From Eubacteriales bacterium (GTDB taxonomy: Bacteria > Bacillota > Clostridia > Lachnospirales > Lachnospiraceae), in contig JAUNPS010000011.1 in assembly GCA_030536575.1 (NCBI GenBank), forward strand, positions 1 to 64,000: a stretch of DNA of 64,000 bases, written 5' to 3'. Under the pieces are notes generated by a model. It had not been told where the DNA came from, ran no database searches, and was given only the letters and a program-made list of their open reading frames with translations. Below, piece after piece: positions 40,980-63,447 of the stretch. The position numbers and the translations under genes were made by a program. Each line of letters starts with the position of its first letter. The first letter of the stretch is position 1.

Positions 40980-40998
40980 ATCCTTCCTCCTCCGGTTT

Positions 40999-42692: not shown

Positions 42693-42763
42693 GTTTCGTC
42701 CTCCTGTCTAAAAAAGGGATGTGTACGGAATTTCTCCATACACATCCCGTCCCGCGGAATCCT

Positions 42764-44077: not shown

Positions 44078-44205
44078 TTTGAATCCCTCCATTTTTTTCT
44101 TGATGTACTCATTATAGCCTTCCTTTTTTGTATAAAAAATAGATTTTCTAAAGGTAAACTTGGACTTTTTCATCATATTTTCACATATGTACAGCGAAAG
44201 AGGGG

Positions 44206-44234
44206 TTGTTTTTCGTCATAAGCTGCGCTATGCT
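44206..44234 (+). promoter_or_regulatory. Promoter of the YesM/YesN-type regulator pair
   Basis: TTGTTT (44206-44211), 17-base spacer, TATGCT (44229-44234), about 120 bp before the kinase ATG; divergent from the binding-protein gene. Confidence 0.5.
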
Positions 44235-44356
44235 ATTCTTATCACTGTCTTTCGCGAAGCGGAAAACGAAAATTTAGAGACAGCGGCATGCCCTGGACAT
44301 TTTCCTGCATACGGATGTTCCCGGCGATGCCCGAAATAGAAACAAGGAGGGGGACA

Positions 44357-47520: not shown

Positions 47521-48672
47521 ATGATCACCGGAAGCAAGGAACTGATCCGCGACATTAACTCGCACCTCGTCCTGGAAACCATCGTAAACGACGGGCCCAT
47601 TTCCAGGGCCGACCTCTCCAAAAAACTCGGCCTCACCAAAGCCACCATCTCCTCCCTGGTCCAACTCCTGATCGACGAAAACCTCGTCATCGAAATCGGC
47701 AGCGCCCAAACCGAAAAAGGCCGAAAACCCATCCTCCTGGACCTAAACCAGCGGGAAGGCCACGTCATTTCCCTGGATCTTGGCGTAGACACCATCACCG
47801 TCCTGACCTGCGACCTGCGCGGAACCCACTGCCGCTTAAAACAATACCCGAACAATGCCTCCGGCCAGGAAATCCTTCCCCTCCTGAAGTCCATCCTGCG
47901 CCAGACCATCGACCGCCTTCCCCCTGCCAAATGCGGCATCGCCGGAATCAGCCTCGGCATCCACGGCGTCGTCCACCAGAACCAGGCCGTTTTCACCCCC
48001 TACTACTCCCTGGAAGGCCAAAACCTGGCCGCACTTTTGCAGGAAGCCTTCCAGATCCCCGTTTTCATGGAAAACGAAGCGAACCTGTCCGTGCTGGGCG
48101 AACGCACCTTTTCCTTCGACTACCCGAACCTGATCAACCTCAGCGTCCACTCCGGCATCGGCCTCGGCATCCTCATCGACGACAAGCTCTACACCGGCCG
48201 AAACGGCTACGCCGGCGAATTCGGCCACACCATCGTCGTCCCGGACGGCCGCCCCTGCCCCTGCGGGAACCACGGCTGCATCGAACAATACGCCTCCGAG
48301 CGCGCCATCCTCCGGGCCATCTCCGAAAAAAAAGGCCGCACAGTCACCCTTGACCAGTTCATTGCCCTCTATAACCAAAAAGACGCCGACGCCCTGCAGT
48401 CCATGGATGACTTCATCCTCTACATGAGCATCGGCATCAACAACCTCCTGAACACCTTTAACCCGGACGCCATTGTCATCAACAGCTCCTTTACCATCTA
48501 CCTGCCCGGCATCACAGACATGCTGCGGGCGGCGCTGAAAAACCGGATGGATAAGTATTGCGTGCTGCTGCCGTCGGGGCTGCAGGATACGGCGATCCTG
48601 CTGGGCGGGGCGTGTGTGGTGATTAAGAATTTTCTGGGGATTGAGCGGCTGTGCCTGCCGCAGCGAAAATGA
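47521..48672 (+). CDS. ROK-family transcriptional regulator (XylR/NagC type)
   Basis: 383 residues. N-terminal winged helix (DGPISRADLSKKLGLTKATI, SSLVQLLIDENLV), then a ROK sugar-kinase-like fold with ISLDLGVDTITVLTCDLRG, LGIHGVV, MENEANLSVLGE, NLSVHSGIGLGILIDDKLY and the zinc motif CPCGNHGCIE. Represses sugar genes until its sugar binds. Could serve either half of the glycan island. Codons are unusually C-rich in the third position. Confidence 0.93.
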   Translation: MITGSKELIRDINSHLVLETIVNDGPISRADLSKKLGLTKATISSLVQLLIDENLVIEIGSAQTEKGRKPILLDLNQREGHVISLDLGVDTITVLTCDLRGTHCRLKQYPNNASGQEILPLLKSILRQTIDRLPPAKCGIAGISLGIHGVVHQNQAVFTPYYSLEGQNLAALLQEAFQIPVFMENEANLSVLGERTFSFDYPNLINLSVHSGIGLGILIDDKLYTGRNGYAGEFGHTIVVPDGRPCPCGNHGCIEQYASERAILRAISEKKGRTVTLDQFIALYNQKDADALQSMDDFILYMSIGINNLLNTFNPDAIVINSSFTIYLPGITDMLRAALKNRMDKYCVLLPSGLQDTAILLGGACVVIKNFLGIERLCLPQRK

Positions 48673-48684
48673 CGAATGGCTGCT

Positions 48685-48945
48685 TTAATCATCAAGCAGC
48701 CATTCGTTTGCCAACGCATTCCCAATCGACGCGATTGAAACGCTTGAACCAATATTGTCAGCAAGAAACAGGATAATTTTACGCAGCAGGACCGGATCTG
48801 TGATCTGCTTTTGCCCTCTTCGTTTTTCCCGTATCTCGAAGCCATAAAAATCAAGGAACTCACGCAGCGAAAGCGAAAGCATTTTGATCTCCACGCATCT
48901 TCCGATTTAGTTGCACAGGATAGCATAAACTTTCATTTTTTTCAA
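48685..48945 (-). pseudogene. Remnant of a DUF4143/AAA_14 ATPase gene
   Basis: The surviving frame (48685-48894; 69 codons from GTG) reads VEIKMLSLSLREFLDFYGFE, then REKRRGQKQITDPVLLRKII and ADNIGSSVSIASIGNALANE. In full-length DUF4143 ATPases the first part (GRxVEIKMLPLSFREFLDF) and the second (about 70 residues later) are separated, and an AAA domain of ~130 residues precedes them; a C-terminal domain follows. Here the AAA half, the middle and the C-terminus are all missing. A promoter (TTGAAA at 48940-48945, 17 bases, TATCCT at 48917-48922) remains directly in front, so deletion joined the original promoter region to mid-gene. Not expected to be functional. Confidence 0.75.
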
Positions 48946-48998
48946 GTATTTGCACTCAAATGCAAAAACTTTCATTTTTCGACAGCCATTTGCCTTCC

Positions 48999-49715
48999 CT
49001 AATCAATCTCCCAAAACTGATAATGCTCCCGCAAAACCCTCTCAATACTCTGATAATCCCTCTCCTCCAACAAAGAAATCATCTCCTCATGAAGCTGAAG
49101 AAACTTCTCCACCTGCCTCTGCTCCAGCACCCTCTCCACCGTCTTCGTCCTCGACGGCGTCGTAATCCTGTCCACATACTCATACATATTGCACAAAAGC
49201 CGGTTCTCCGTAATCCTTGCCAGATACATATGAAACGCATTATCCGCCTGAATCACCTTCTTCGGGTCCGCCGCTTCCCCGCCGACCGCCTCCTTCAGCT
49301 TCTCAAACTCCTCCCGAAGCCCCTCCAGATGCTCCTCCTTCAAAACCCCCATAATCTGGTAAAAAATCCCGGTATCAAAGACCTTCCGCATCTGAATAAT
49401 ATCCGACTTAAACGTTTTCTCCAGAAGAATCCCATACAGCATCGGATCCAGCATCTTCTGATTATAGGTATCGTTGACAAAGGTTCCCTCCGCCCGCTTA
49501 ATATAAACGACCCCATAAGCCTCCAGAATCTTAATCGCCTCGCGCACCGAATTCCGCCCGATCCCAAAGCTCGCACACATCTCCGGCTCCGTAGGGAGCT
49601 TGTCCCCCGGCTTCAGTTCCCCGGCAATAATCGAATCCGTGATCTGCTTCACCACCTGATTCACCACCGATTCCCCGTGAAGTGGTTTTGCGTGAAATAA
49701 ACTTCCTTCTGCCAT
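48999..49715 (-). CDS. GntR-family regulator, FadR (FCD) subfamily
   Basis: 238 residues. Winged helix with VVKQITDSIIAGELKPGDKL, PTEPEMCASFGIGRNSVREA, IKILEAYGVVYIKRAEGTFV; C-terminal FCD helical domain with metal/ligand residues (RKVFDTGIF, NAFHMYLARIT, LHEEMISLL). Last gene after the BKACE gene (22 bp), so it probably senses an intermediate of that pathway and represses the operon. Confidence 0.92.
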   Translation of the reverse strand: MAEGSLFHAKPLHGESVVNQVVKQITDSIIAGELKPGDKLPTEPEMCASFGIGRNSVREAIKILEAYGVVYIKRAEGTFVNDTYNQKMLDPMLYGILLEKTFKSDIIQMRKVFDTGIFYQIMGVLKEEHLEGLREEFEKLKEAVGGEAADPKKVIQADNAFHMYLARITENRLLCNMYEYVDRITTPSRTKTVERVLEQRQVEKFLQLHEEMISLLEERDYQSIERVLREHYQFWEID

Positions 49716-49737
49716 AATCTTCTCCCTTCCTGTTTCT

Positions 49738-50538
49738 TTACCGCACCGTCGTCCCCAGGATCTTCCTCGCTTCCTCTGTCGTCGCCGGTTCTCTTCCCAT
49801 TGCCCGGATCAGCTCCACCAGCCGTTCCACCAACTGCCAGTTGTACTCCGCATCCTCCGTCTCCGTCAGATAATGGCTGTCCTCGAACCCAATCCGCACC
49901 GTGGACGCCCCCATGGCAATCGCCGCCGCCAAAAACGTCCAATCCTGTCTTCCATAATGCGTCACGCCCCACTTCGCATCCGCCGGAACCCTGGAGCGGA
50001 ACGCAATCAAATCCTCGATATTCGCCTGCATGCCGCCCTGCTGCCCGAACACCAGATTATAAAACAGCGGCGTCCGGAACGGAATTTCGCCCCGCAGGCG
50101 CTCGATATTATAAAACATCCCAATATCAAACACCTCAATATCCGGAATCACACCCGCCTTATAAATCTCCTCCGAGCAATACCGGATTTCCGCCGCAGAA
50201 TTGTGATAAACCGCCTCGCCCAGATTCGTCGAACCCGCATTCAGCGAAGCCGTCCCCACCTTCCGGTAAGCCAGCGGCCTGCACCGCTCCTCGATATTCA
50301 TCTCCGACACGCCGCCTGTAGACGCCTGAAAAACAATATCACATTTCTCATCAATCTTCTCAAAACATTCTACCATATAAGAAATATCCGGCGTCAAACT
50401 TCCGTCCGGTTTTCTGCAATGCAGATGCACCATCGACGCTCCGGCCTTCGCCGATCTCGCCACATCCTCCGCCAGTTTTCCCGCATCCACCGGGTCGCCC
50501 GCTCGCACCGGCGCCACCGATACTACAATTTTCTCCAT
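49738..50538 (-). CDS. BKACE-family enzyme (3-keto-5-aminohexanoate cleavage protein, DUF849)
   Basis: 266 residues from ATG 50536-50538 (GAGGTGAAG upstream). TIM-barrel DUF849/BKACE: VVSVAPVRAGDPVDAGKLAE, GASMVHLHCRKPDGSLTPD (zinc His-x-His), VFQASTGG, GTASLNAGSTN, VEVFDIG-type strand and VRIGFEDSHYL. BKACE enzymes condense a beta-keto acid with acetyl-CoA to give acetoacetate and a CoA ester. The specific substrate cannot be told. Overlaps no gene; kinase stop lies 10 bp upstream. Confidence 0.9.
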   Translation of the reverse strand: MEKIVVSVAPVRAGDPVDAGKLAEDVARSAKAGASMVHLHCRKPDGSLTPDISYMVECFEKIDEKCDIVFQASTGGVSEMNIEERCRPLAYRKVGTASLNAGSTNLGEAVYHNSAAEIRYCSEEIYKAGVIPDIEVFDIGMFYNIERLRGEIPFRTPLFYNLVFGQQGGMQANIEDLIAFRSRVPADAKWGVTHYGRQDWTFLAAAIAMGASTVRIGFEDSHYLTETEDAEYNWQLVERLVELIRAMGREPATTEEARKILGTTVR

Positions 50539-50548
50539 CTTCTTCACC

Positions 50549-52030
50549 TCACACAATTCGTTTCACCAAATCACCAAGTGTCTTCTCCGTGCCGACATTT
50601 CCAGGGAAAATAATGTAGGGCCTGCCAGGGAACTTCGCTTCCGCCCCCTGCCTCCACACCGGGATTCCTTTGTCCGCCTGGCCCATCACCAGCGCCTTTC
50701 GGATTCCCAGTCCGCGCACCGCTACATCACTGGACGTAATCCCGCCTTTCGCCAGGATAAACGCCGGTTCCTCCTCCAGCGCGCACACCACATCCGTCAG
50801 CGCCTCCGAAATCCGCACGGAAATCCTCAGGGCCTCCTCCTTGCTTCCGCCCTCCGGAAGCACCAGTTTCCGGCTGGTGTACAGCACCGCCGTGCGGCCA
50901 GTCCGAATCACACGCTCCACTTCCCGGACAGCGCGTTTCGTCTCCGCTTCCAGAGCGCCTTCCTCCGCGGCATGTTCCGTAGAAAATTCCAGGAATTCCA
51001 CTTCCGGCAGCTTCCGAAGCTCCTCCAACTGCTGATTTGTCTTTTTCACATGGGAGCCTACCACGACCAGGCCGCCGTTCGCGCCCTTGCCCGCATTCTC
51101 CAGAAGCTTCTCACGTCCCAGAAAGCCCTGTTCCGTGACGCCGCCTAAGACCTTCGGCACCGCAGCCGCACTCCGAATCAGGAAATGTTTTCCCTTTTCA
51201 AGGGCACCTGCAAGCGCTATCGCGAAGACTTTCAAATCCGCATATTCCAGCGCATTTACTACAATCTGCCGAAAGCCTTCGGCATCGCAGAGCTTCCTCT
51301 CGATCTGCTCATACTGCATCCCGCGCAGCTCTTCCAGTTCAATGCAGAGCACCTCGTCTGCTGGATACCGCCCCAGGCTCTTTTCTGCAATGTATTCCTT
51401 CAAGTCCGAAGCCTGAAATCCAAAAGTCGTATCCTTCGCAAACTCCGTCTCCCCCGCCGGAACCGCCGTCTCGCCTTCCAGGCAATAATGGACGTCTCCA
51501 GCCGTCAGGCGGCCTCCCTCCGGGAAAAACGGACACAAAATCAGCCCGTCCACCGCCGACGCGCCTTCTTCCTCCAGCGCCGCCCGCAGCGTGTCCGTCT
51601 CCAGCGGATAGTGGCCCCGCAGCGTCGAATCCCCTCTGGAAATCAGCAGAAAATCCTTTCCCTGCTCCTTCGAAACCGCCGCCAGGCTCTTCGCGATCTG
51701 CCGGTGCACCTGCTCCGTCTTCTCCTCCGAAAAGCTCCTGGAATTCGTCAGCACATAGAACATCCCATGCTCGTCCTGGAATCCCCGGCGCATCAGGTCT
51801 TCCGTCATTTCCGCGGTTCCCCAGCCGGGAATCCCGCAGTCTGTCTCCGGTGCGGCCGTATATACATAGATATCATGCACCGTCTGCGTACCCGTCGGGT
51901 CGTCGTCCAGCACAACGATCTGGCTTCCCAGGCCGGACACCGCCGCCTGATACCGCGCCTCAATCTCTTCTTTCTGCTCCTCCGTATACGAAGGGTATCG
52001 CTTCTTTAACTCTTCCAGCGTCATTCTCAT
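50549..52030 (-). CDS. Four-carbon acid sugar kinase family protein (DUF1537)
   Basis: 493 residues from ATG 52028-52030 (GGAGAATC upstream). N-terminal domain with IVVLDDDPTGTQTVHDIYVY, FYVLTNSRSFSEEKT, LLISRGDSTLRGHYPLE, ILCPFFPEGGRLT. C-terminal domain with LVVVGSHVKKTNQQLEEL, ILAKGGITSSDVAVRGLGI and IIFPGNVG for ATP. Family members phosphorylate tetronates such as D-threonate, D-erythronate or 2-keto-acids. This is longer (493 versus ~420) than the typical OtnK type. Paired with BKACE and GntR rather than the common PdxA2/OtnC partners. Confidence 0.9.
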   Translation of the reverse strand: MRMTLEELKKRYPSYTEEQKEEIEARYQAAVSGLGSQIVVLDDDPTGTQTVHDIYVYTAAPETDCGIPGWGTAEMTEDLMRRGFQDEHGMFYVLTNSRSFSEEKTEQVHRQIAKSLAAVSKEQGKDFLLISRGDSTLRGHYPLETDTLRAALEEEGASAVDGLILCPFFPEGGRLTAGDVHYCLEGETAVPAGETEFAKDTTFGFQASDLKEYIAEKSLGRYPADEVLCIELEELRGMQYEQIERKLCDAEGFRQIVVNALEYADLKVFAIALAGALEKGKHFLIRSAAAVPKVLGGVTEQGFLGREKLLENAGKGANGGLVVVGSHVKKTNQQLEELRKLPEVEFLEFSTEHAAEEGALEAETKRAVREVERVIRTGRTAVLYTSRKLVLPEGGSKEEALRISVRISEALTDVVCALEEEPAFILAKGGITSSDVAVRGLGIRKALVMGQADKGIPVWRQGAEAKFPGRPYIIFPGNVGTEKTLGDLVKRIV

Positions 52031-52069
52031 ACTCGATTCTCCATTATCCGTTTTAATGCCCCAACACGC

Positions 52070-52258
52070 CGCCAAATCCTATCCTCGGCCTGGGCAGCGC
52101 CGCGCGTCAGCACACATTTCCCATGCACCGACCCGCTCACCGCCAGATTCTATCCTCAGCCTGGGCAGCGCCGCGCGCCAGCACACATTTCCTATGCATC
52201 GACCCGCTCACCGCCAAATTTCATCCCTGGCTGGGGCGGCGCCGCGCGATCGCGGGCA
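52070..52258. repeat. 71-bp tandem repeat, about 2.7 copies
   Basis: Units begin at 52070, 52141 and 52212 (CGCCAAAT or CGCCAGAT), exact spacing 71 bp, third copy cut short at the GH127 stop. The core is CTATCCTC-GGCCTGGGCAGCGCCGCGC followed by CAGCACACATTTCC and GACCCGCTCAC. Between the kinase and GH127 genes; no gene crosses it. GC-rich and able to form stems, so it may end or process the mRNA here. Confidence 0.88.
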
Positions 52259-54214
52259 TCAGCCATAATAAACCTGCATGTACACCCGCATTTCCCCAAA
52301 CGCCCGGTTGTCCCAAGCATAATACGGCACCAGCTTCATCTCCTGCTCCGTAAAGCCCTTCACCCGCAGCGTCTGATACAACGCATCCGCCTCATGCTCC
52401 TCATACACAATCCGCTTCATCTTCCCTCGCAGCGCCACAAACTTCTGCCCCGCGATCTCATCCGTCTCCGCAGAGAACTCCGCCTTCAGCGGCAGATACA
52501 ACTCCGCCAGCGGCGTCCCATCCGCATCCACACCTTCCGCACAATACACCAGCGGCCCTCTCTCCACCGCCGCCTGCCCGGTCGTCTCCTCCACATACGA
52601 ATGCGCCGCCGTCAGCCGCACCTCCATCGGAAGCACCAGCGTAAACTCCATCTCGTCACATCCTGAAATCTCCACCTTCGCATAGCCGTCCGCATCCGCT
52701 GAAAGCTTCTCCCGCTTTCCATCAATCTCGATTTCCGCCTGCGTGCACCATGCCGGAATCCGCAGCCGCACACTTGCCGGAACCTCCGGCGTCCGGTTCT
52801 TCACCGCAAAATGAATCGTCTCCTCAAACGGATACCCCGTCGTCTGCACAATGTCAAACTCCGCGCCATTCTCCAGATGGAAGCTTGCCTCACAGGACTC
52901 ATACATGCCCGTGTAAACACAATCCTTCCCCTGAAGCCACGCATACTCCGCCGCTTCCGCCAGCGTCCGCGCCAGATTCGGCGGGCAGCAATAGCTCAGA
53001 ATATACTCGCTCCTCGTCAGTGGCCAAACCAGCTTATACGGCAGCTCCTTCTCCCGGCGCAGCATATTCTCATAGAAAAATTTCTTTCCATCCATGCTCA
53101 CCGCCGCCAGGTTCGTATTCAGCATCACCCGCTCGATCAGGTCAAAATATTCCGCCTTCGGATTCAGCTGGAACATCCGGTAAGCCCAGAACACCAGCCC
53201 AATAGACGCGCACGTCTCATTATAAGCCGTCGTATTCGGAAGCTGATACTCATACCCATACGCCTGATGCACCAACTGATGCGTGAAGAAATTCCCATAA
53301 GGCGAAGCCCCATTGTACAAAGCCCCGCATCCGCCCGTCACATAAATCTTCTGATTCACCAGGTTCTTCCAGACCTTGTCCAGCACTTCCAGATACTCCG
53401 CGTCCGTCTCCTCCATACAAAGATCCGCCAGACCCGCGTACAGATAATTCGCCCGCACCGCATGCCCGATAATTTTCTCATGCTGCTTCAGCGGAAGCCT
53501 GTCCTGATTATCATCCAGTCCTTCCTTCACACTGTCCCGCAGCGTAATCGCCAGCTTCGCCAGCTCCAGATATTTCTTCTCGCCGGTCACCCGGTACAGT
53601 TCCATCAGCCCCATATAATGGGACGGGCACACCGCCGTTTTGACCTCGCCCTTCCTGGCGCTGTCCTCGTACATTTTCCGCAGATAGTCCGCCGCCTTCT
53701 CCGCCACCTTCAGGAACGAATCCTTTCCGGTCAGACGCTTGTACAGGGCTGCCGTTGTAAACAGATGGCCGAAATTATAGACCTCAAAATCATTGATATT
53801 CGCAAACCGCGCCGCGCCTTTCCCTTCCCGCTCCGCAATGATCTGCTTCGTAGAAATATAGCCGTCCGCCTGCTGCGCACGCCCGATCAGCGCAATGTAA
53901 TCCTCCAGATCCGCCAGCAGCTTCTCATCCTTCCCGGCCGCCGCCGCATACACCGCCGCTTCCATCCATTTATAGAAATCCCCGTCGCCGAAATCCGTCC
54001 CGTCGAAAGACCCTTCCGTCTCTCCCGCACAAATCCGGAAATTCTCCACCACATGGCTGATCTCCTTCTCCTCAAACATGTGCCGAAGGTGCGGAATCGT
54101 TTCCGCCGTCGTCCGGTCAACCACCGTCTTCCAGAAACCTTCCTTCAAAGAAATCTGCCCGAACGGAATCGGTGAAACTTTCGCATAGGGCGATTTTGTC
54201 GTATCTGTCAGCAT
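52259..54214 (-). CDS. GH127 beta-L-arabinofuranosidase
   Basis: 651 residues from ATG 54212-54214 (AGGAGGACAAG upstream). GH127 signs: FWKTVVDRTTAETIPHLRHM, FYKWMEAAVY, YNETCASIGLVFWAYRM (zinc Glu and Cys) and LSYCCPPNLARTLAEAAEYA with the Cys pair, the first being the proposed nucleophile. Cysteine-dependent, retaining; removes beta-L-arabinofuranose from plant hydroxyproline-linked glycans and arabinan side chains. No signal peptide. Third gene after GH42 and the racemase-like gene. Confidence 0.93.
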   Translation of the reverse strand: MLTDTTKSPYAKVSPIPFGQISLKEGFWKTVVDRTTAETIPHLRHMFEEKEISHVVENFRICAGETEGSFDGTDFGDGDFYKWMEAAVYAAAAGKDEKLLADLEDYIALIGRAQQADGYISTKQIIAEREGKGAARFANINDFEVYNFGHLFTTAALYKRLTGKDSFLKVAEKAADYLRKMYEDSARKGEVKTAVCPSHYMGLMELYRVTGEKKYLELAKLAITLRDSVKEGLDDNQDRLPLKQHEKIIGHAVRANYLYAGLADLCMEETDAEYLEVLDKVWKNLVNQKIYVTGGCGALYNGASPYGNFFTHQLVHQAYGYEYQLPNTTAYNETCASIGLVFWAYRMFQLNPKAEYFDLIERVMLNTNLAAVSMDGKKFFYENMLRREKELPYKLVWPLTRSEYILSYCCPPNLARTLAEAAEYAWLQGKDCVYTGMYESCEASFHLENGAEFDIVQTTGYPFEETIHFAVKNRTPEVPASVRLRIPAWCTQAEIEIDGKREKLSADADGYAKVEISGCDEMEFTLVLPMEVRLTAAHSYVEETTGQAAVERGPLVYCAEGVDADGTPLAELYLPLKAEFSAETDEIAGQKFVALRGKMKRIVYEEHEADALYQTLRVKGFTEQEMKLVPYYAWDNRAFGEMRVYMQVYYG

Positions 54215-54315
54215 TCTTGTCCTCCTATCTGAAACGCTCCCGGAAGCCTGGAAATCGGCATGCCGCATTTCCCGCATTTTATCTGACCGGAAGCGCTTTC
54301 CCGCTGAATTTTATT

Positions 54316-54984
54316 TTACAGGCTTCCCTTACTCTCCAGCGCCGCTTTCAGCGCTTTCGCCCCAAATGCCGGGCTGGAAACCGTATATTTCCCAGTTGCC
54401 TCTTCAATGTCTTTCTCGCAGAACGCCATCGATCCCTGGCACAGCAGGATCACATCCACATCCTTCGCCACTTCCTGCGCCTTCGCAATCAGGCATTTCT
54501 TAAACTCTTCCTGTCCGGCCCCAAAAACCTCCACCAGGCCATCCACCAGTTCCACCTGTTTTCCCATCTCCCGCGCAACCCGCAGAATCGTATTCTTCGT
54601 CGGATTCAGCGTCGTCGGCAGCGTTGCCAGAACCCCGATCCGCTTCCCGCTTCTCACCGCGGCCCGGCACATCTCCTCATCGATCCGCACAATCGGCACA
54701 CCCAGATACCGCGCCATCTCCTGGACGCTGTCCGCCGCCTCGCCCACCGACGAGCAAATATTCAAAATCGCCTCCGCGTCATCCTGCACTGCCTGCAAAA
54801 ACAGCCCAAACAGCCTTGCCGCCGCCTTCGCGGTCACATAACCGTGCTCTCTCGTCTCCGCCAGAATCGACGGATCCTGATAGGAAAGAAGCTCTACGCC
54901 CTCCCCCAGATTTTCCTTTACCTCTTTTTCCACCAGTTCAATCAATTCCGGTGTCGTACTCGTGTAAACTAACGCTGCTTTCAT
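54316..54984 (-). CDS. Aspartate/glutamate racemase-like protein
   Basis: 222 residues. Asp/Glu/hydantoin racemase fold: MKAALVYTSTTPELIELVEK, DAEAILNICSSVGEAADSVQ, KRIGVLATLPTTLNPTKNTI, DVILLCQGSMAFCE. The two catalytic Cys are in NICSSVG and LLCQGSM. Substrate unknown; in this setting it may act on a sugar-acid or a 2-substituted acid rather than amino acids. Its ATG overlaps the GH42 stop (ATGA), so it is tied to glycosidase expression. Confidence 0.88.
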   Translation of the reverse strand: MKAALVYTSTTPELIELVEKEVKENLGEGVELLSYQDPSILAETREHGYVTAKAAARLFGLFLQAVQDDAEAILNICSSVGEAADSVQEMARYLGVPIVRIDEEMCRAAVRSGKRIGVLATLPTTLNPTKNTILRVAREMGKQVELVDGLVEVFGAGQEEFKKCLIAKAQEVAKDVDVILLCQGSMAFCEKDIEEATGKYTVSSPAFGAKALKAALESKGSL

Positions 54985-56999
54985 CTTTCTGATTCTCCTT
55001 TCTTTTTCAATACGGCCACATCCCGTCCGGTCAGGGAAAATGCTCCCTCCCGCTCACATTGGTGGGTCAGGTCTTCCCAGATGCCTTCCGGCAGGCGCAC
55101 CGTTTTTTCCGCAATGTCATGATTCAATACAAAATAAAATTTCCCATTCTGGTTTTCCCGGCAGGTGGCTTCCACGCCTTCATCCGCGTCCAGCACCGGC
55201 AAAATCTGCCGCTCCTTGCACAGTCCTCCCAGAAAATCATCCAAAAACGCCGCATCCGGCTGCGTTCCCAGATAAAACGCCTTTCCATTTCCATAGGCAT
55301 GCTCGGTCACGCACGGCTCCCCGGCATAAAAATCCTTTTCATACCTTCCGAGCACCTTCGCGCCCTCCGTGCGAATCCGGTCACACAAAAATCCACTTAC
55401 ATAGGACTTCCCGCTGTCTTCCATCCGAATGCCATTTTGCTCCTCCGGGAACAATGCGTCCGTCTCCTCCACCCAGATACCAAACAGCTCCCGCAGCGGC
55501 CCCGGATAAGCCCCAAACACACAGCGGTCATTTTCATCCGCAAGGCCCGTCATATACGTCCCTACCACGGTTCCGCCCTGTTCCGCAAAGGCCTTCAGCC
55601 TGTTCGCCAGCCCCTCTTTCATCATATAAGCCAGCGGCGCGACAATCATTTTATATTGGCTCAAATCCGCCGTAAATTTCACAATATCCACCGGGATATT
55701 CTTCCTGTGGAACGCCCGGTAATAATGCGCCACCTGCGCCAGGTAATCCATATCACAGGTCGGCCCGCTGCAATTCTCCAGCGCCCACCAGTTATCCCAG
55801 TCAAAGAGGATTCCCACTTCCGCCTTCGTCCGCGCATCCAGAATCTGGCCTCCCAGCCGGTCAAGCTCTTCGCCCAACTGCTCGAACTCCCGGAAAATCC
55901 GGGTATCCGTCCGCCCCGAATGGGAAATGACCGCCCCATGGAACTTCTCCTGGCCGCCCACGGACTGGCGCATCTGGAAATACAGCGCGCTGTCCCCGCC
56001 GTGCGCAATGCCCTGGTAAGCCAGAAGCCGCACCTCGCCGGGCCTCTTCAGCTTATTGTACGGCTGCCAGTTCTGCTGGTTCGGCGACTGCTCGGCCACC
56101 ATATAGGAAGCCCCGTCCTTCAGCCCGCGCATAATGTCATGCTTCAGGGCCGGGAACGCGCTGTCGTCCTTCGGCGACGGATAATTGTCCCACCCCGCAA
56201 AATCCATATTTCGGGTGAGCTGGAACTGATTCAGCTTCTTAATGAACCCGGAAATATTGCTGAACACCGGGATATCCGGCGTAATCCGCCGCAAAACATT
56301 CGCCTCATTTAAGAAGCACTCCTCCGTGGTGTCCGTCACAAACCGCTGATAGTCGAGCTGCTTTGCCGGGAAAAACTTATCGTCGTCATTCCGATCCGTC
56401 GGCAGCATAATCGTATCAAAATCATACACCGTCCGCCCCCAGAATGCCGTATTCCATTTCTCGTTCAGATTCTCGGTGGTGCCATATTTCTTTTTCAGCC
56501 ACAGGCGGAACTTCTTCTCACAGTTCTCGCAATGGCAGAATGTGCTGTACTCATTGGCCACATGCCAGGCCACCAGCCCCGGAAAATCCTTGTACCGAAG
56601 CGCCATCTGCTCCGCCATCGCCGCGGCCCGCTCCCGGTATTTTTCACTGTTGACGCAATAAAAATTCCGCATGCCGTGCGTCCGTTTCAGTCCGTTATTG
56701 TCCACCGGCATGATTTCCGGGTATTTTTTGCTCATCCACTCCGGCTGTGCCGCCGTCGACGTCGCCAAGCAGACGTAAATCCCATTTTCCCAGATAATCG
56801 AAAGGATCTTGTCCAGCCACTCGAACTGATATACCCCTTCTTCCGGCTCCAGCTTCGCCCACGAAAACACCGGGAGCGCCACGTAATTGATATGGCAGCG
56901 TTTAAAATACTCCATGTCCTGGCGAATCGTCGCTTCGTCCCACTGATCCGGATTGTAGTCCCCGCCAAAATAGATGACCGGCGCAATCTGTTTTTCCAT
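54981..56999 (-). CDS. GH42 beta-galactosidase (second)
   Basis: 672 residues from the ATG at 56997-56999, selected for AGGAGGATACG upstream; the open frame continues 33 codons upstream into a permease remnant. YFGGDYNPDQWDEATIRQDM, acid/base Glu in WHVANEYSTF, zinc Cys in CHCENCEKKF, nucleophile Glu in YMVAEQSPNQQNW. Cytoplasmic. Not close in sequence to the GH42 at 38961, e.g. AEQSP instead of MEMQA, so the two likely act on different substrates. Confidence 0.93.
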   Translation of the reverse strand: MEKQIAPVIYFGGDYNPDQWDEATIRQDMEYFKRCHINYVALPVFSWAKLEPEEGVYQFEWLDKILSIIWENGIYVCLATSTAAQPEWMSKKYPEIMPVDNNGLKRTHGMRNFYCVNSEKYRERAAAMAEQMALRYKDFPGLVAWHVANEYSTFCHCENCEKKFRLWLKKKYGTTENLNEKWNTAFWGRTVYDFDTIMLPTDRNDDDKFFPAKQLDYQRFVTDTTEECFLNEANVLRRITPDIPVFSNISGFIKKLNQFQLTRNMDFAGWDNYPSPKDDSAFPALKHDIMRGLKDGASYMVAEQSPNQQNWQPYNKLKRPGEVRLLAYQGIAHGGDSALYFQMRQSVGGQEKFHGAVISHSGRTDTRIFREFEQLGEELDRLGGQILDARTKAEVGILFDWDNWWALENCSGPTCDMDYLAQVAHYYRAFHRKNIPVDIVKFTADLSQYKMIVAPLAYMMKEGLANRLKAFAEQGGTVVGTYMTGLADENDRCVFGAYPGPLRELFGIWVEETDALFPEEQNGIRMEDSGKSYVSGFLCDRIRTEGAKVLGRYEKDFYAGEPCVTEHAYGNGKAFYLGTQPDAAFLDDFLGGLCKERQILPVLDADEGVEATCRENQNGKFYFVLNHDIAEKTVRLPEGIWEDLTHQCEREGAFSLTGRDVAVLKKKGESER

Positions 57000-57135
57000 T
57001 CTTCGTATCCTCCTGTTTTCTTTTACGAAACCCTTCTGCAAATGAAAGAACACTTCCAACGTCGGCAGCGTCGAAAGTACAATTCCTACTATCGTCATAC
57101 CGTAATCCGGCGTAAAGCCGCCGCCGTGTAAATTG
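57000..57135 (-). pseudogene. 3' remnant of a MalG-type permease gene
   Basis: Minus-strand frame reads GGFTPDYGMTIVGIVLSTLP, TLEVFFHLQKGFVKE, then continues in frame into GH42. The intact permease at 57294 ends SGFTPDYGMTMVGIVLSTLP, TLVVFFTLQKAFVEGMVGSV. So the last ~40 codons of a permease are repeated in front of GH42, about 80% identical at DNA level by eye. Confidence 0.88.
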
Positions 57136-57153
57136 GCCTTACACCCTCTTTTC

Positions 57154-57170
57154 TCTACATACTACGTAGG
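57154..57170. promoter_or_regulatory. Operator-like palindrome before GH42
   Basis: TCTACATACTACGTAGG on the plus strand, near-palindromic 17-mer matching CCTACGTACTACATAGG at 60356. Lies just after the expected transcription start, a typical repressor position. Confidence 0.65.
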
Positions 57171-57184
57171 ATGTTTATAAAAAT

Positions 57185-57213
57185 ATTATAGCGTACAAGA
57201 GATTTATTGTAAA
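57185..57213 (-). promoter_or_regulatory. Promoter of the GH42-racemase-GH127 genes
   Basis: Minus strand TTTACA (57208-57213), 17 bases, TATAAT (57185-57190). Flanks match the promoter at 60386-60414 closely, including AATATCAAATTT upstream. Confidence 0.75.
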
Positions 57214-57232
57214 TGGACTTAATATCAAATTT

Positions 57233-57275
57233 GGGGACGCGCTTTTTAGCTATATTGCATAAAAAGCGCGCCCCC
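57233..57275 (-). terminator. Terminator after the second importer operon
   Basis: GGGGCGCGCTTTTT, 13-base loop, AAAAAGCGCGTCCCC on the minus strand, 19 bp after the permease stop and just upstream of the GH42 promoter. Nearly the same hairpin is at 60437. Confidence 0.6.
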
Positions 57276-57293
57276 TGTCCAAAGCATACAAAT

Positions 57294-58109
57294 TTATTTT
57301 ACTGATCCAACCATTCCTTCTACGAATGCCTTCTGTAAGGTAAAGAACACCACCAATGTCGGCAGCGTCGAAAGCACAATTCCCACCATCGTCATGCCAT
57401 AATCCGGCGTAAAGCCCGACGCCAGATTCGAAACCGCCAACGGAAGCGTAAACTTTTTCTCGCTCTGCAGGGCGATCAACGGCCACATATAATTGTTCCA
57501 GCTTGCCATAAACATGAAAATTCCCGCCGCTGCATAGGTCGATTTCATCATTGGCATATAAATACGGAAAAAAATCTGATACTCATTCAGCCCGTCCACC
57601 CGCGCCGCTTCCAGCGTGTCCTTCGGAAAGGCATACGTATTCTGCTTGAAAAAGAAAATCAAAAATGGCGTCCCGATTGCCGGAAGAATAATCGCAAGAT
57701 AGTTATTCAAAAGCCCCAGGTTCGCAAACATCCGGAACATCGGGATAATCTTCGCCGCAAACGGCACCATCATCGACGCAATCAGCGCCATAAACAAAAT
57801 TTCTTTCCCCCTGCTTGGGAAAATCACAAACGCATACCCCGCAATCGAGCAGATCAAAAGCCCCAGAAACGTCACCACAAGCGCCAGAAACAGCGAATTT
57901 CCGAAAGCCCGGAACAGATTTGAATATGAAAACGCATTTTTTACATTTTCAATCAGCTTCGTCCCAAACGTCAGCTTCCCCTGAATAATATCCGAAGAAC
58001 TGTTCGTCATACCGACGATCATCCAGTAAAACGGGAACACACAGACCAGGGAAATGGTCATTAAAAAAATATGTTTGCACGCATTGCCAATTGTCTTCTT
58101 TTTAATCAT
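57294..58109 (-). CDS. Sugar ABC transporter permease (MalG-type, second importer)
   Basis: 271 residues from the ATG at 58107-58109, overlapping the MalF-type gene by 8 bp (a GTG three codons earlier is also possible). Six membrane segments, EAA loop TLEAARVDGLNEYQIFFRIY. C-terminus is the parent of the remnant at 57000. Confidence 0.92.
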   Translation of the reverse strand: MIKKKTIGNACKHIFLMTISLVCVFPFYWMIVGMTNSSSDIIQGKLTFGTKLIENVKNAFSYSNLFRAFGNSLFLALVVTFLGLLICSIAGYAFVIFPSRGKEILFMALIASMMVPFAAKIIPMFRMFANLGLLNNYLAIILPAIGTPFLIFFFKQNTYAFPKDTLEAARVDGLNEYQIFFRIYMPMMKSTYAAAGIFMFMASWNNYMWPLIALQSEKKFTLPLAVSNLASGFTPDYGMTMVGIVLSTLPTLVVFFTLQKAFVEGMVGSVK

Positions 58110-58986
58110 TCTGATCACCCGTCACTTTCTTCTGGAAAATCGTAATTACCACAATAATCAGCAGCACCACGTAAGACACCGCAGATGCATAGCCATAATT
58201 CGGCACAAAGTTAAAGGACAAATCGTAAATATATTCGGAAATGGTTCTGGTCGCATTGCCAGGCCCACCATTCGTCAAGTTCACCACCTCGTCGAAAAGC
58301 TGAAGGGTATTCGTCACCGCCATAATACTGGTCAGAAAGACGATGGGCTTCAGAATCGGAAAGGTAATTTTGAAAAAGGACTGCCGGAAATTTGCTCCGT
58401 CAATCTTCGCCGCTTCATATACGGATTGATCCGTATTCTGGAGCGCCGACAAAAAGAAAATCATAAAATATCCGGTATACCGCCAGATCAATGCCACGAT
58501 AATGACAAATTTCCCCCAAAACGGATCTAACACAAAAGCAATCGGCGTTTCAATAATTCCAAGAGCCAGCAACAGGTTGTTCACAACGCCGTCCAGAGAA
58601 AAAATATTTTTAAAAAGAATCGAATAAGAAATCGGTGAAGTCACGCACGGAAGAAAAATACAGGTACGGTAAAAGCCCCGCAGCTTCAGGTTCGGCGTGT
58701 TTAAAAGCACGGCAATCAACATTGCCAGAAACAGCATAATCGGAATCTGAATTACCGCATAGAGAAGCGTATTTCCAATGGTTGTCCAGAATACGTTGTC
58801 CTTCAACATCCTGGCATAATTGGCCAGTCCGGCAAATGTCAGATTATTCCCCTTTCCAGTCTTCAGGGAAAGTAGGAAGGCCTGTACCATCGGCACATAG
58901 CTGAATACCAGAATGAGTACGGAAGCAACCAGAACCATGCTCCACCCAATCCGTGAATTTTTTTTCTTAAGAGTCTTGCCTTTCAT
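58102..58986 (-). CDS. Sugar ABC transporter permease (MalF-type, second importer)
   Basis: 294 residues from ATG 58984-58986 (AGGAGC upstream; the frame upstream of it has no site). Six membrane segments, EAA loop VYEAAKIDGANFRQSFFKIT. 73 bp after the binding protein gene. Confidence 0.92.
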   Translation of the reverse strand: MKGKTLKKKNSRIGWSMVLVASVLILVFSYVPMVQAFLLSLKTGKGNNLTFAGLANYARMLKDNVFWTTIGNTLLYAVIQIPIMLFLAMLIAVLLNTPNLKLRGFYRTCIFLPCVTSPISYSILFKNIFSLDGVVNNLLLALGIIETPIAFVLDPFWGKFVIIVALIWRYTGYFMIFFLSALQNTDQSVYEAAKIDGANFRQSFFKITFPILKPIVFLTSIMAVTNTLQLFDEVVNLTNGGPGNATRTISEYIYDLSFNFVPNYGYASAVSYVVLLIIVVITIFQKKVTGDQND

Positions 58987-59059
58987 TGCTTCCACAGCTC
59001 CTTTCTGCTGCTTTTTGCGGCGGAAACGGACGCCCGTCTCCGCCGCCTTTCTGCCGCGT

Positions 59060-60334
59060 TTACTGAACGCTTGCGTTAAACTGCGCGGCTGCACTTTCCA
59101 GTTCAGTAGCTAAATCGCTTCCATTTAAGATATTCGGTGTCACAGCCAGAAGGGCGCTCTGAGCCTCGGCGCTGTATACTCCTGTATTTACGGACGGAAT
59201 CTGAGCTTCCCACTCAACCAGTGTCTTGTTGATCTGCTGACCGCTGAAGTATTCGGATTCTGCATCCAGTGCTTCCACTTCGGAGGCCGGGAGGTAGGTT
59301 CCGATGATGTTGTTGCTCTTCAGCAGAGAGTCATACAGTTCCGTGCTTCCCCCAAAGGTGTTCGCCAGGAACTGAGCGGCTGCTTCTGCATTCTCAGAGT
59401 TTTTCAGAACGAACCAGCTCGAACCGCCCTGGTTTGAATAATGGGTAGCGCCCTCGGTGCTCATTTTCGGAATCGGAGCCATTTTCCAGAGACCGCTCTG
59501 GTCTTCACCTGCCATGATCGTGGAGGTGATCCAGCTTCCACGGATAACACATGCAACGTCGCCGCCATTGATCGCGCCCGCGAAGCCTGTCCAGTCGCTG
59601 ACTACCTGACAGAAATCGGATTCGTTCAGTTTCTTGAAGACATCATAGCACTCAGCCAGCGCTTCATTGTCCACAAAATCAGCCTGCCCTTCGTCGTCGG
59701 TGAACCATTTTCCGGTAGACTGAAGCATAATCTGGAACTCAGCGATATCGTTCGGGTTATAGGTCTGGAGCATATGGCCTTTTTCCTTCAGCTTCTCGCC
59801 CAGAGCCAAATATTCTTCCCAGGTCAGATCCTGCATGTCTTCATCCGTCACACCGATTTCTTCCATGTAATCGGTACGATAGAACAATGCCGCCACGCCG
59901 GTATCGAAGGGAACGCCGTAGCCTACGCCTTCATAGGAAACCATTTCCTGTTTATAAGATGCGAAATCGTCATAGGAAATGTAGTCGTCTACCGGAAGAA
60001 ATGCGTCCGGATAAGACATCAGATAGCCCTGTGCATTCAAGTCGCTGATCAGGACAATGTCCGGAAGGTCATCGGTCACGCCGGAAGCCAGAACCGTGTG
60101 GATCTTCTGCAGGCAGTCTGCCTTCGCCATCTCCACAAAGTTCACAGTTACGCTGTCATCCAGGCTGTCCGCAACTTCCATCGAAGTTCCGTTCATCGTC
60201 TTGTCCCATGCCCATACGGTGATTTCAGTGGGTTCTTCCGCGGATACGGTAAGCGCGGAACCGCAGAGAGCGGTGGCAGTCATGCTGAGGGCCATCGCGG
60301 CGCCTGCGGCAGACTTAAACATTTTTTTCTTCAT
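59060..60334 (-). CDS. Sugar ABC transporter substrate-binding protein (second importer)
   Basis: 424 residues, AAGGAG upstream. Signal peptide MKKKMFKSAAGAAMALSMTA with cleavage near VSA; no lipobox Cys, as in the other binding protein of this island, so membrane attachment may use the signal anchor. Family 1 fold: ITVWAWDKTMNG, DLPDIVLISDLNAQGYLMS, VPFDTGVAALFYRTDYM, WTGFAGAINGGDVACVIRGS, SNQGGSSWFVLKNS. Probably binds an oligosaccharide handled by GH42 and GH127. Promoter and palindrome upstream are known copies of those before GH42. Confidence 0.92.
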   Translation of the reverse strand: MKKKMFKSAAGAAMALSMTATALCGSALTVSAEEPTEITVWAWDKTMNGTSMEVADSLDDSVTVNFVEMAKADCLQKIHTVLASGVTDDLPDIVLISDLNAQGYLMSYPDAFLPVDDYISYDDFASYKQEMVSYEGVGYGVPFDTGVAALFYRTDYMEEIGVTDEDMQDLTWEEYLALGEKLKEKGHMLQTYNPNDIAEFQIMLQSTGKWFTDDEGQADFVDNEALAECYDVFKKLNESDFCQVVSDWTGFAGAINGGDVACVIRGSWITSTIMAGEDQSGLWKMAPIPKMSTEGATHYSNQGGSSWFVLKNSENAEAAAQFLANTFGGSTELYDSLLKSNNIIGTYLPASEVEALDAESEYFSGQQINKTLVEWEAQIPSVNTGVYSAEAQSALLAVTPNILNGSDLATELESAAAQFNASVQ

Positions 60335-60355
60335 AAAGATACTTCTCCTTTCCTT

Positions 60356-60372
60356 CCTACGTACTACATAGG
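60356..60372. promoter_or_regulatory. Operator-like palindrome before the binding-protein gene
   Basis: CCTACGTACTACATAGG, a 17-bp palindrome with one mismatched pair, centred ~15 bases after the expected start of transcription. Second copy at 57154. Confidence 0.7.
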
Positions 60373-60385
60373 ATGTTGTAAATAT

Positions 60386-60414
60386 AATATAACACCTTTG
60401 TATTTTGTTGTAAA
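60386..60414 (-). promoter_or_regulatory. Promoter of the second importer operon
   Basis: Minus strand TTTACA (60409-60414), 17 bases, TATATT (60386-60391), 52 bp before the ATG. Confidence 0.75.
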
Positions 60415-60436
60415 CTGACTTAATATCAAATTTAAA

Positions 60437-60472
60437 GGCGCGCTTTTTGGTTATATTTCACAAAAGCGCGCC
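60437..60472 (-). terminator. Hairpin between the Rpn gene and the importer promoter
   Basis: GGCGCGCTTTT/AAAAGCGCGCC perfect 11-bp stem, 11 bp after the Rpn stop. Copy of the hairpin at 57233. T tract is short (TTTAAATTT). Confidence 0.55.
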
Positions 60473-60482
60473 CCTGTCTTTT

Positions 60483-61451
60483 TCACTTTTTCAATTCTTC
60501 TGCGTATGCCGCCTGCTCAGATGTAGGAATCTGAAGAGCGTTCATCGCGCGTTCTGCCGACCAGCCAGTGCTATTCATTAAGTTCTTCAAGGATAAAAGA
60601 ACTCCCTTTACAATCCCCTTTTCAATCCCCTTTTCGATACCTCTCTCTTCCACTCCTTTACTCAAATTACACATCGTCAATACCTCCCTTTCCAGTTCTC
60701 TGGTCATCTGAATCGAAAAATCTTCCTGCAAAATCCTCTTTTTCTCATCCGCTCCCCGCTCAGCGGAAAGAAGCACTTCCAACAATTTCAGAATTCCGGA
60801 ATAATTCTCACCCTCCGCATCCCCCAGACAAATCATCACCGCAGTCAGCAAATCATAATCCCCCCTCTTCTCCCTCACATCCCCCACCAGATTCTCCTCC
60901 CTGATGGAATAACGATTTATGCTGTTCCTGCGCTTCTTCGGCGGATTCATACAAATCCAAATACTGTAAACCTTTTTGATTTTTTCATAATGCGCATCCG
61001 TAAATTCGGTCCCATACTGAGCTGAAATCATGCGGCTGCAATAATAAATCCCACGCTTAATAATCGGATACCCCGGATAAAAATCATTCTGCGCTTCCAC
61101 GTTAATAATCAGCCTCATCCGTTCTCCGGACACCGGCGCCGCAGCCAAAAAACGGATATCATACGTAATCGTCCCTTCACCGATACTGCTGTCCTCCGTC
61201 GCCACGCCCCTGATCCGCTCCGCATCCGCCGCTTCATCCGGATTAACCGCGACTTCCCCAATCTGCGGCGTCCCCTCAATATAATTCTCAGCGATTTCAT
61301 GGACATCACAGGCCCGATACTCATCCAGACAGCTTTTCATAATCCACGCCAGGATCATCTTATTTGCAAGCAGTTTTTTACAGGCCGCATCATAGGATGC
61401 CTTTTCCCCTGCAGCAGTTATGCTTTTTGCCAGTGTATTTTCCACTTCCAT
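60483..61451 (-). CDS. Rpn-family PD-(D/E)XK nuclease (transposase_31-like)
   Basis: 322 residues. N-terminal DAACKKLLANKMILAWIMKS, catalytic core with TITYDIRFLAA and LIINVEAQNDF (D and ExQ), RGIYYCSRMISAQYG, and a C-terminal helical part with repeated GIEKGIEKGIVKG. The family is annotated as recombination-promoting nuclease; recent work links Rpn proteins to phage defence, which is not shown here. Typically multi-copy in Lachnospiraceae. Confidence 0.88.
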   Translation of the reverse strand: MEVENTLAKSITAAGEKASYDAACKKLLANKMILAWIMKSCLDEYRACDVHEIAENYIEGTPQIGEVAVNPDEAADAERIRGVATEDSSIGEGTITYDIRFLAAAPVSGERMRLIINVEAQNDFYPGYPIIKRGIYYCSRMISAQYGTEFTDAHYEKIKKVYSIWICMNPPKKRRNSINRYSIREENLVGDVREKRGDYDLLTAVMICLGDAEGENYSGILKLLEVLLSAERGADEKKRILQEDFSIQMTRELEREVLTMCNLSKGVEERGIEKGIEKGIVKGVLLSLKNLMNSTGWSAERAMNALQIPTSEQAAYAEELKK

Positions 61452-61566
61452 CCGCTGTTCCCTCCATTTTCTGATTTCTTTTAATTTTATCTTACCACAG
61501 CTATTTCAAATAAGCCATAACATTTCTTCCGCCTCCGGAAAATAACGCTCTTTCCTGAAAAATTAA

Positions 61567-62382
61567 TCACTCTTCCTCCGGCAACTCATATAAAAACCCG
61601 CAGTATTCCCTGATCTCTGCGAAATCCACCTCGCACTCTCCTCCAAAAATCCGCACAGGAACCTTCGCGTCAAATCCATAGATGACAGGAAGTTCTTCCT
61701 GTTCCAGATCATAAACAATCACCTTTTCCTTCGCGGGGTCCACAAGCCAATATTCCCGCACCCCCGCGGCACTGTACTTATGAAGCTTCAGCGTCATATC
61801 CTTCTTCTTCGTGCGCTTCGATAAAACCTCAACGATGAAATCCGGCGCGCCATAGACGCAGCGCAGAATCAGCTTCCTCCGGTCGCAAAGAACCAGAACA
61901 TCCGGTTCAACAATCGTTTTCTCATCACAGTCAAGCTGAACATCCGTCGGCGCAGTCAGCACAATGCAGTCCCCTTTTTTCCTGTGAATATAACTTTTCA
62001 GTACACTGGCGATTTCCATACTGATCATCTGATGAAGCGTGGACGGGCCAAGCATTTCATAAAAAACGCCGTCGATCAGCTCCACCCTCTTCTCTTCCGG
62101 AAGCGCATAATAATCCGTTAATGTATAATCGCCCGGCTTTTTCGCCAGATAGGCACATCCGGCCTCGCTTACCCGGTCAGGCCATCTCTTCGACGTGCCG
62201 TAAAGCGTCGGGTCGGTAAACAGCGCTCTCTCCAAAGCGCGCATGGTCGCGAGGCGGGGCGCGGCCGTCACGCCGGAAAAAACTTTCTGGACGGTACTCA
62301 GCGGGATATTCGCAAGTTCGGCAATGGTTTCATTCGTATAGCCAAGTTCTTTTTTACGTGCTTTCAGTTCTTCAACGGTCAT
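61567..62382 (-). CDS. HTH domain fused to Uma2-family endonuclease-like domain
   Basis: 271 residues from ATG 62380-62382 (GGAGAA upstream). An upstream ATG is rejected since it overlaps the -10. Residues 1-65 are a Xre/LacI-like helix-turn-helix (ETIAELANIPLSTVQKVFSG). Residues ~80-270 are Uma2/DUF820 restriction-like: EKRVELIDGVFYEML, TDVQLDCDEKTIVEPDVLVL, PDFIVEVLSKRTKKKDMTLK, YSAAGVREYWLVDP. D, E and K of the PD-(D/E)XK core are present. Natural role unknown. Confidence 0.88.
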   Translation of the reverse strand: MTVEELKARKKELGYTNETIAELANIPLSTVQKVFSGVTAAPRLATMRALERALFTDPTLYGTSKRWPDRVSEAGCAYLAKKPGDYTLTDYYALPEEKRVELIDGVFYEMLGPSTLHQMISMEIASVLKSYIHRKKGDCIVLTAPTDVQLDCDEKTIVEPDVLVLCDRRKLILRCVYGAPDFIVEVLSKRTKKKDMTLKLHKYSAAGVREYWLVDPAKEKVIVYDLEQEELPVIYGFDAKVPVRIFGGECEVDFAEIREYCGFLYELPEEE

Positions 62383-62406
62383 TTCTCCGTCCCCTTTCTT
62401 TCCATT

Positions 62407-62435
62407 AATATACCATTTTGTTTCCATTTTGTCAA
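62407..62435 (-). promoter_or_regulatory. Promoter of the HTH-Uma2 gene
   Basis: Minus strand TTGACA (62430-62435), 17 bases, TATATT (62407-62412); close to consensus. Confidence 0.78.
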
Positions 62436-62586
62436 TTTCTTTTCCATTTCGCACAACAAAAGTTTCGCGCGACAAAATGGATTTCCGGGTTTCCCAAAAA
62501 GAAAAACGCATTGCTCCATAATAGAACAATACGTTTCCTATAAAATATCATTGTTCCGGCAATACGCCAAGCGCCGGGCATCTGGC

Positions 62587-63447
62587 CTACTCCGCCAGCA
62601 AATCCGCCAGCCTCGCAAACTCCTCCAACGTCAGCGCCTCCCCCCGCACACTCGCCGGCATCCCCAGCCGCTCGATCGCCTCCGCGATCTCCTCCTTGGA
62701 AAACGCCAGCTCCTGCGCATTGCTCAATCCATTCTGAAGCGTCTTCCTCCTCTGATTAAAGGACGCCCGGATAATCGCAAACAAAAGCTTCTCATCCTTC
62801 ACCTTCACCGGCGGCTCCTCATAACGCGTCAGCCGGATCACCGCGCTCCCCACATTCGGCCTCGGCATAAAGCAGTTCTGAGGCACATTCGCCGCAAGAT
62901 AAGGCTTCGCATAATACTGCACCGCCAGCGACAGCGCGCCGTAATCCTTACTCCCCGGCCCGGCCTGCATCCGCATGGCAACCTCCTTCTGCACCATAAC
63001 CGTAACGCTTTTAAGGGGAACGCTGCTTTCAAAAAGCCCCATGATAATCGGAGTCGTAATATAATAAGGCAAATTTGCCACGACTTTCATGGGCTGGCCG
63101 CCGTTTCGCTCCTTGGCAAGCTTCGCAAGATCCAGCTTCAGCACATCTTCATTGATAATCTGCACATTGTCATAAGCGCTCAGCGTGTCTTCCAGAATCG
63201 GAATCAAATTTTTATCGATCTCGACGGCCGTCACTTCCCGCGCCGCCTCCGCCAGATACTGGGTCATTGTCCCAATTCCCGGCCCGATTTCCAGCACAAA
63301 ATCCTCTTTCGTAATCTCAGCCGCCGCAATAATCTTATCCAGCACATGCGCGTCAATCAAAAAATTCTGGCCGAATTTCTTCTGAAAGTTAAACTGATAT
63401 TTCTTTAAAATTTCGATCGTCTTCTGTGGATTCGATAATTTTTCCAT
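62587..63447 (-). CDS. rsmA: 16S rRNA dimethyladenosine transferase RsmA (KsgA)
   Basis: 286 residues from ATG 63445-63447 (GGAAAGGG upstream). FQKKFGQNFLID, SAM motif VLEIGPGIGTMTQYLAE, VEIDKNL, catalytic VANLPYYITTPIIM, RPNVGSAVIRL. Dimethylates A1518 and A1519 of 16S rRNA. It follows the tatD-like gene by 1 bp (TGATATG). Confidence 0.95.
   Translation of the reverse strand: MEKLSNPQKTIEILKKYQFNFQKKFGQNFLIDAHVLDKIIAAAEITKEDFVLEIGPGIGTMTQYLAEAAREVTAVEIDKNLIPILEDTLSAYDNVQIINEDVLKLDLAKLAKERNGGQPMKVVANLPYYITTPIIMGLFESSVPLKSVTVMVQKEVAMRMQAGPGSKDYGALSLAVQYYAKPYLAANVPQNCFMPRPNVGSAVIRLTRYEEPPVKVKDEKLLFAIIRASFNQRRKTLQNGLSNAQELAFSKEEIAEAIERLGMPASVRGEALTLEEFARLADLLAE

Follow-up and report, generated by a model that had tools for sequence, protein, structure and literature searches.

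Genes can gain a nearby promoter through tandem duplication or deletion, and among the examples of such promoter capture cited in the available part of PMC11111574 are those of citrate in E. coli and of his in Salmonella. A second known kind of change concerns the regulator itself: according to the accessible portion of PMC4052901, the same kind of sugar catabolic genes can stand under unrelated, non-orthologous regulators, with different DNA motifs, from one lineage to another. The locus described here lies in a Lachnospiraceae genome (GCA_030536575.1, contig JAUNPS010000011.1), of which we analysed one continuous stretch of 64,000 nucleotides, hereafter the window, and it appears to combine promoter capture with an exchange of regulators. 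As in the cases in the available part of PMC11111574, a gene seems to have gained a nearby promoter by duplication and deletion; unlike them, the event here would be natural and old, its scar decayed, with both promoter copies keeping one operator and serving genes that already worked together. The accessible portion of PMC4052901 treats LacI-family groups, whereas the window lacks a LacI gene here, and the task seems to fall to a GntR/FCD regulator from a joined module. Judging from literature listings, we found no description of this locus.

Gene order and two copies of one leader

On the minus strand, the locus begins with leader 1 (60335..60482), followed by the gene of an extracellular solute-binding protein (SBP, 59060..60334; Pfam SBP_bac_8 and SBP_bac_1) and those of two ABC permeases carrying Pfam BPD_transp_1, namely P1 (58102..59094, whose true start may be internal to the listed ORF) and the intact P2 (57294..58118), so that a binding protein and two permeases of an ABC sugar importer are present. 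The gap between P2 and the next full gene holds leader 2 (57136..57293) and the remnant of a permease 3' end (the stub, 57000..57134), and no LacI gene. Then come a GH42 glycosidase of 672 aa (54981..56999; Pfam Glyco_hydro_42, 42M and 42C), an Asp/Glu racemase family protein (RACE, 54316..54984) overlapping the GH42 stop, a GH127 protein (beta-L-arabinofuranosidase family, 52259..54277), an acid-sugar kinase type protein with domains SBD_N and NBD_C (50549..52075), a type also named DUF1537, and a beta-keto acid cleavage enzyme family protein (BKACE, 49738..50556). The last gene encodes a GntR/FCD regulator (48999..49715), with a GntR winged helix (PF00392, E 6.3e-19) and an FCD domain (PF07729, E 1.2e-15), the proposed binder of both leaders.

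Three further features of the window were recorded. Between GH127 and the kinase gene, a 71-base G+C-rich unit is present in two and a half tandem copies (52069-52248). The region 38961-47394 carries a second GH42 gene, plus a binding protein followed by two ORFs that distantly resemble the importer's permeases (27-31%); next to them is a histidine kinase, together with a response regulator that carries an AraC-type domain. A gene at 60483-61451, whose matches to Rpn-type PD-(D/E)XK nuclease/transposase are weak and stay under the cut-off, stops 4 bases short of the leader 1 homology and may have had a role in the rearrangement.

The two leaders align along most of their length, as the preliminary description had reported, with 105 identities in 136 columns (local alignment score 105), and the stub aligns with the end of P2 with 92 identities in 110 columns (score 128); the maximum was 30 in each set of 2000 shuffles (dinucleotide shuffles for the leaders), which excludes alignments no better than random. 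When the whole genome was searched at the DNA level with the leader, only these two places were found, the second matching query bases 3-124 at 77% (E 1.7e-17), and there was no third copy. An assembly artefact was thought unlikely as the source of the copies, since they differ at 16-23% of sites. The earlier view that this divergence speaks against a recent event was borne out; the copies are related and arose in this lineage.

Both leaders contain a hairpin, promoter boxes and, just downstream of these boxes, a palindrome, the putative operator. Leader 1 reads TTTACA-17-TATATT (-35 box 60409-60414, -10 box 60386-60391, operator at about 60358-60377) and leader 2 reads TTTACA-17-TATAAT (-35 box 57208-57213, -10 box 57185-57190, operator 57156-57175). 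These two score best among the promoter-like sites of 56900-60700 (10 and 11 of 12); because the interval's total of six such sites does not exceed what shuffles give (mean 5.4), what supports the promoter calls is that the boxes are conserved between the two leaders and, in relatives, ahead of RACE. The hairpins that open the leaders are strong (z -6.4 and -4.7). In these hairpins (57233-57275 and 60435-60474) the lower stem differs between the copies yet pairs in each, one copy using G-U where the other uses G-C. A role as terminators was rejected, because no T-run follows them 3' on the minus strand and a terminator scan did not return them. No Rfam family reached gathering scores in 48000-62600.

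The preliminary description had proposed a copy of about 40 permease codons running in frame towards GH42; copy and frame stand, and the length needs revision. The clear, ungapped match covers 34 codons (P2 codons 235-268), perhaps about 39 when counted from an Asn-Leu pair, and the last codons and stop of P2 are missing, the ribosome-binding site of GH42 lying in the last part of the stub. In comparisons of 102 bases with 12 relatives, a small basis, the stub and the window's own P2 were sisters (FastTree support 0.997; 200/200 neighbour-joining resamplings) and had in common a Thr, a Leu and a Leu found in none of the 12 relatives. The stub has changed faster than P2 (branch lengths 0.154 and 0.038, a fourfold difference in the same tree), and it departs at three residues that are invariant in the 12 relatives and P2. 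The stub and P2 differ at third codon positions in 10 of 16 cases (p 0.016), and in 7 of 8 within the first 72 bases (p 0.003); this excess, in small numbers, may mean that the second permease remained a coding gene for some time before its truncation. The stub would now be untranslated leader RNA.

Importer and GntR modules in relatives

For comparison, we took the best 80 of 364 named GH42 loci, several of which have little upstream sequence. Ten of them carry SBP-P1-P2 on the 5' side of GH42, and all ten have a LacI-family gene (about 340 codons) after P2 and a short distance ahead of GH42; two further genomes (L144, L145) have the same SBP-P1-P2-LacI-GH42 order, giving a LacI gene in 12/12 importer relatives, in the place that leader 2 occupies in the window. 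These loci, from Lachnospiraceae and other Clostridia (L049 Blautia schinkii, L069, L013 and others), share importer and GH42 with the window, and several also have RACE, GH127, kinase and BKACE after GH42; unlike the window, they hold a LacI gene between P2 and GH42, and neither a second leader nor a stub. Control by LacI in these relatives is assumed from gene order. The same-genus locus L015 has LacI-GH42 without this importer. In five loci (L049, L069, L016, L017, L018), importer, LacI, GH42, RACE and GH127 are joined and the fetched stretch has no GntR match, which looks as if one regulator had been kept per fused locus.

In the window's own genome, the best LacI matches reach 31-32% and none exceeds 32%; as the genome is 90.7% complete, a LacI gene could sit in the part that the assembly lacks, only away from this locus. 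Few genomes carry the importer: SBP was found in 3 of 395 genomes and P2 in 15 of 397, own genome included in both counts, with only one other P2 above 53% identity and 13 at 47-53%. A full second transporter 5' of GH42, as a duplication might have left in some relatives, was not seen among the best 80 of the 364 loci, several of them short upstream.

Ten of the 12 importer relatives show no operator AACATCCTACGTAGTATGT in the stretch that was fetched. These ten loci are those that lack GntR (0/10 with the operator, the best sites having 5-7 mismatches). The other two, the near twins L013 and L014, carry both importer and GntR; RACE and SBP are divergent in them, and the operator lies in the gap between the two, immediately ahead of RACE and some 320 bases away from SBP, where it may also play a part for the importer. 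The window's GntR found a match at E 1e-50 in 11 of 397 genomes of the family, the own genome among them. Six of the loci fetched with this gene have GntR, no such importer, and the operator before RACE, which brings the GntR-carrying loci with the operator before RACE to eight.

RACE-GH127-GntR-kinase-BKACE forms a unit in L134, L135 and L138; in L013 it is divergent to the importer, and likewise in L014, where BKACE would lie beyond the contig end. This module has the genes, promoter layout and operator of the window, and differs in that it is separate from or divergent to the importer, with the operator before RACE. In all five loci TTTACA stands upstream of RACE, followed 36-43 bases on by ACATCCTACGT(A/T)G; measured from the nearest TTTACA to ACATCC, the distance is 38 and 39 bases in the window's leaders. 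The palindrome also precedes RACE in L136, L137 and L139, the neighbours of L136 including TRAP-transporter-like proteins on our reading of the translations.

A blastn search of 91 loci with leader 2, made before any motif was drawn and hence cleaner evidence than a consensus count, matched only window-derived loci and L013 and L014 (21 and 20 identical bases). Chance was rejected for these two matches, as the matched bases are the operator before RACE. A site with at most three mismatches to the 20-base consensus AACATCCTACGTWGGATGTT was present in 8 of 13 loci with a GntR homologue versus 0 of 81 without (Fisher p 1e-8, a value that is too small, and 8/13 arises partly by construction, because the consensus was drawn partly from the counted loci, L013 and L014 are near twins, and L154/L155 repeat L015/L019). 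All eight have one such site before RACE, and the GntR loci without it are L024, L140, L141, L142 and L143 (best 5, 4, 8, 5 and 5 mismatches). Leader 2 itself has two mismatches to the consensus and leader 1 four. A palindrome pattern derived from the window matched in none of the relatives.

Within the own genome, the operator occurs with 0 mismatches only in the two leaders and with three mismatches at six other places; the search gave 11 match rows in total versus 23 for the reversed control pattern, so no extra copies stand above background. A weaker GntR-type site, with three mismatches, lies at 13356 in L013 before another putative binding-protein gene, and the same site is at 13115 in L014. 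A TTTATAAA-like motif precedes SBP once or twice in 8 of 10 relatives and not at all in two; we build nothing on it, since its count had no control and TTTATAAA also occurs in leader 2 itself.

Probable origin of the shared promoter and course of events

The preliminary description saw the leader as the importer's own promoter, whose duplication had brought the glycosidases under the transporter's control. Its structural part, a tandem duplication followed by deletion, remains the best reading of the sequence: promoter and downstream gene piece are present as direct copies in the same order, and the order leader-stub-GH42 fits, though no relative with an undeleted second copy was found among the best 80 of the 364 loci. 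Its assignment of the promoter and the direction of control were not supported by the comparison with relatives, where LacI stands before GH42 in every importer locus and the operator is mostly absent from such loci, preceding RACE in those that carry GntR. That description had held that a similar promoter before GH42 in relatives, unrelated to the transporter, would speak against it, and the operator before RACE in six loci without this importer comes close to that. Most likely the promoter, with its putative operator, belongs to the GntR module and is now common to importer and enzymes, as the operator stands before RACE in relatives with GntR, and in the window's genome GntR still closes the operon and no LacI match exceeds 32%. 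The direction of control would then, most likely, be opposite to the one first proposed. That GntR binds the leaders is suggested by the association of gene and operator.

As a whole, we consider the following course of events probable. The leader would have been a GntR/FCD-regulated promoter native to the RACE-GH127-kinase-BKACE-GntR catabolic module. In this lineage, an importer-GH42 module, which has a LacI-type gene in relatives, would have become joined to the catabolic one, with the GntR promoter ending up before the importer. Leader-SBP-P1-P2 may then have been duplicated in tandem, after which deletions would have taken nearly all of the second copy and the LacI gene, leaving leader 2, stub and GH42. 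Loss of the stub's end would have been harmless, the first permease being intact. LacI was most plausibly lost no earlier than the duplication, because P2 is intact in the first copy and the stub's end was lost next to the place of LacI in relatives. The importer genes and the enzyme genes would now be transcribed as separate units, each from its own copy of the one promoter and operator. The position of the operator directly behind the -10 box suggests that GntR would block transcription until a ligand arrives, perhaps an acid-sugar intermediate, a guess from the kinase and BKACE genes.

Several elements could be arranged differently. Leader 2 might be the catabolic promoter in its old place, with a stub-GH42 fragment that had lost LacI inserted between it and RACE, and leader 1 a later copy before the importer. 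This would suit the position of the operator before RACE in relatives and the overlap of GH42 with RACE in the window, as if GH42 had been placed behind that promoter; we nevertheless hold it to be unlikely, since leader and permease would have to be copied separately, whereas one tandem duplication yields both, in order and with the hairpin in both leaders.

Uptake of a second transporter with its leader from another strain, beside a decaying native one, would shift the divergence to the time between strains or species. The third-position excess, as if both copies had long coded for protein, agrees with this, as does the situation in two same-genus genomes, which have no close SBP and best P2 matches of 51% and 33%. 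The Thr, Leu and Leu common to the stub and own P2 alone mean, however, that the donor would have to be close, and we regard such an uptake as quite improbable.

Still less credit can be given to the importer's own promoter having been duplicated and brought before GH42. Leader 1 does precede the importer, the order of the copies fits, and in L013 and L014 the operator lies in the RACE-SBP gap, not far from an importer; this is outweighed by its absence from all importer loci without GntR and by its position before RACE in loci without this importer. A functional stub, whether as leader peptide, N-terminal extension of GH42 or regulatory RNA, is the least probable of all, for although the frame is open over 54 codons from 57161 to the GH42 ATG at 56999 and an ATG in the stub opens a 705-aa ORF, no ribosome-site-like sequence was seen by eye before this stub ATG, GH42 has its own AGGAGG and ATG, which makes a fusion protein unlikely, the stub departs at invariant residues, and folding of 57040-57180 is ordinary (z -1.4), with no Rfam match at gathering scores.

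Returning to the GntR promoter, duplicated with the importer, we put forward more tentatively that one small rearrangement swapped the regulator of the whole pathway: a copy of this promoter may have replaced the promoters of the LacI module, the deletion that trimmed the importer may also have removed LacI, and the scar would show the order of the steps. A shared promoter tells its gene of origin only once relatives are compared. On this comparison, one GntR protein and two operators are predicted, which is open to direct test, and the locus would show a regulon rewired in nature, among gut Lachnospiraceae, with the scar, the probable old state and the new state all legible.
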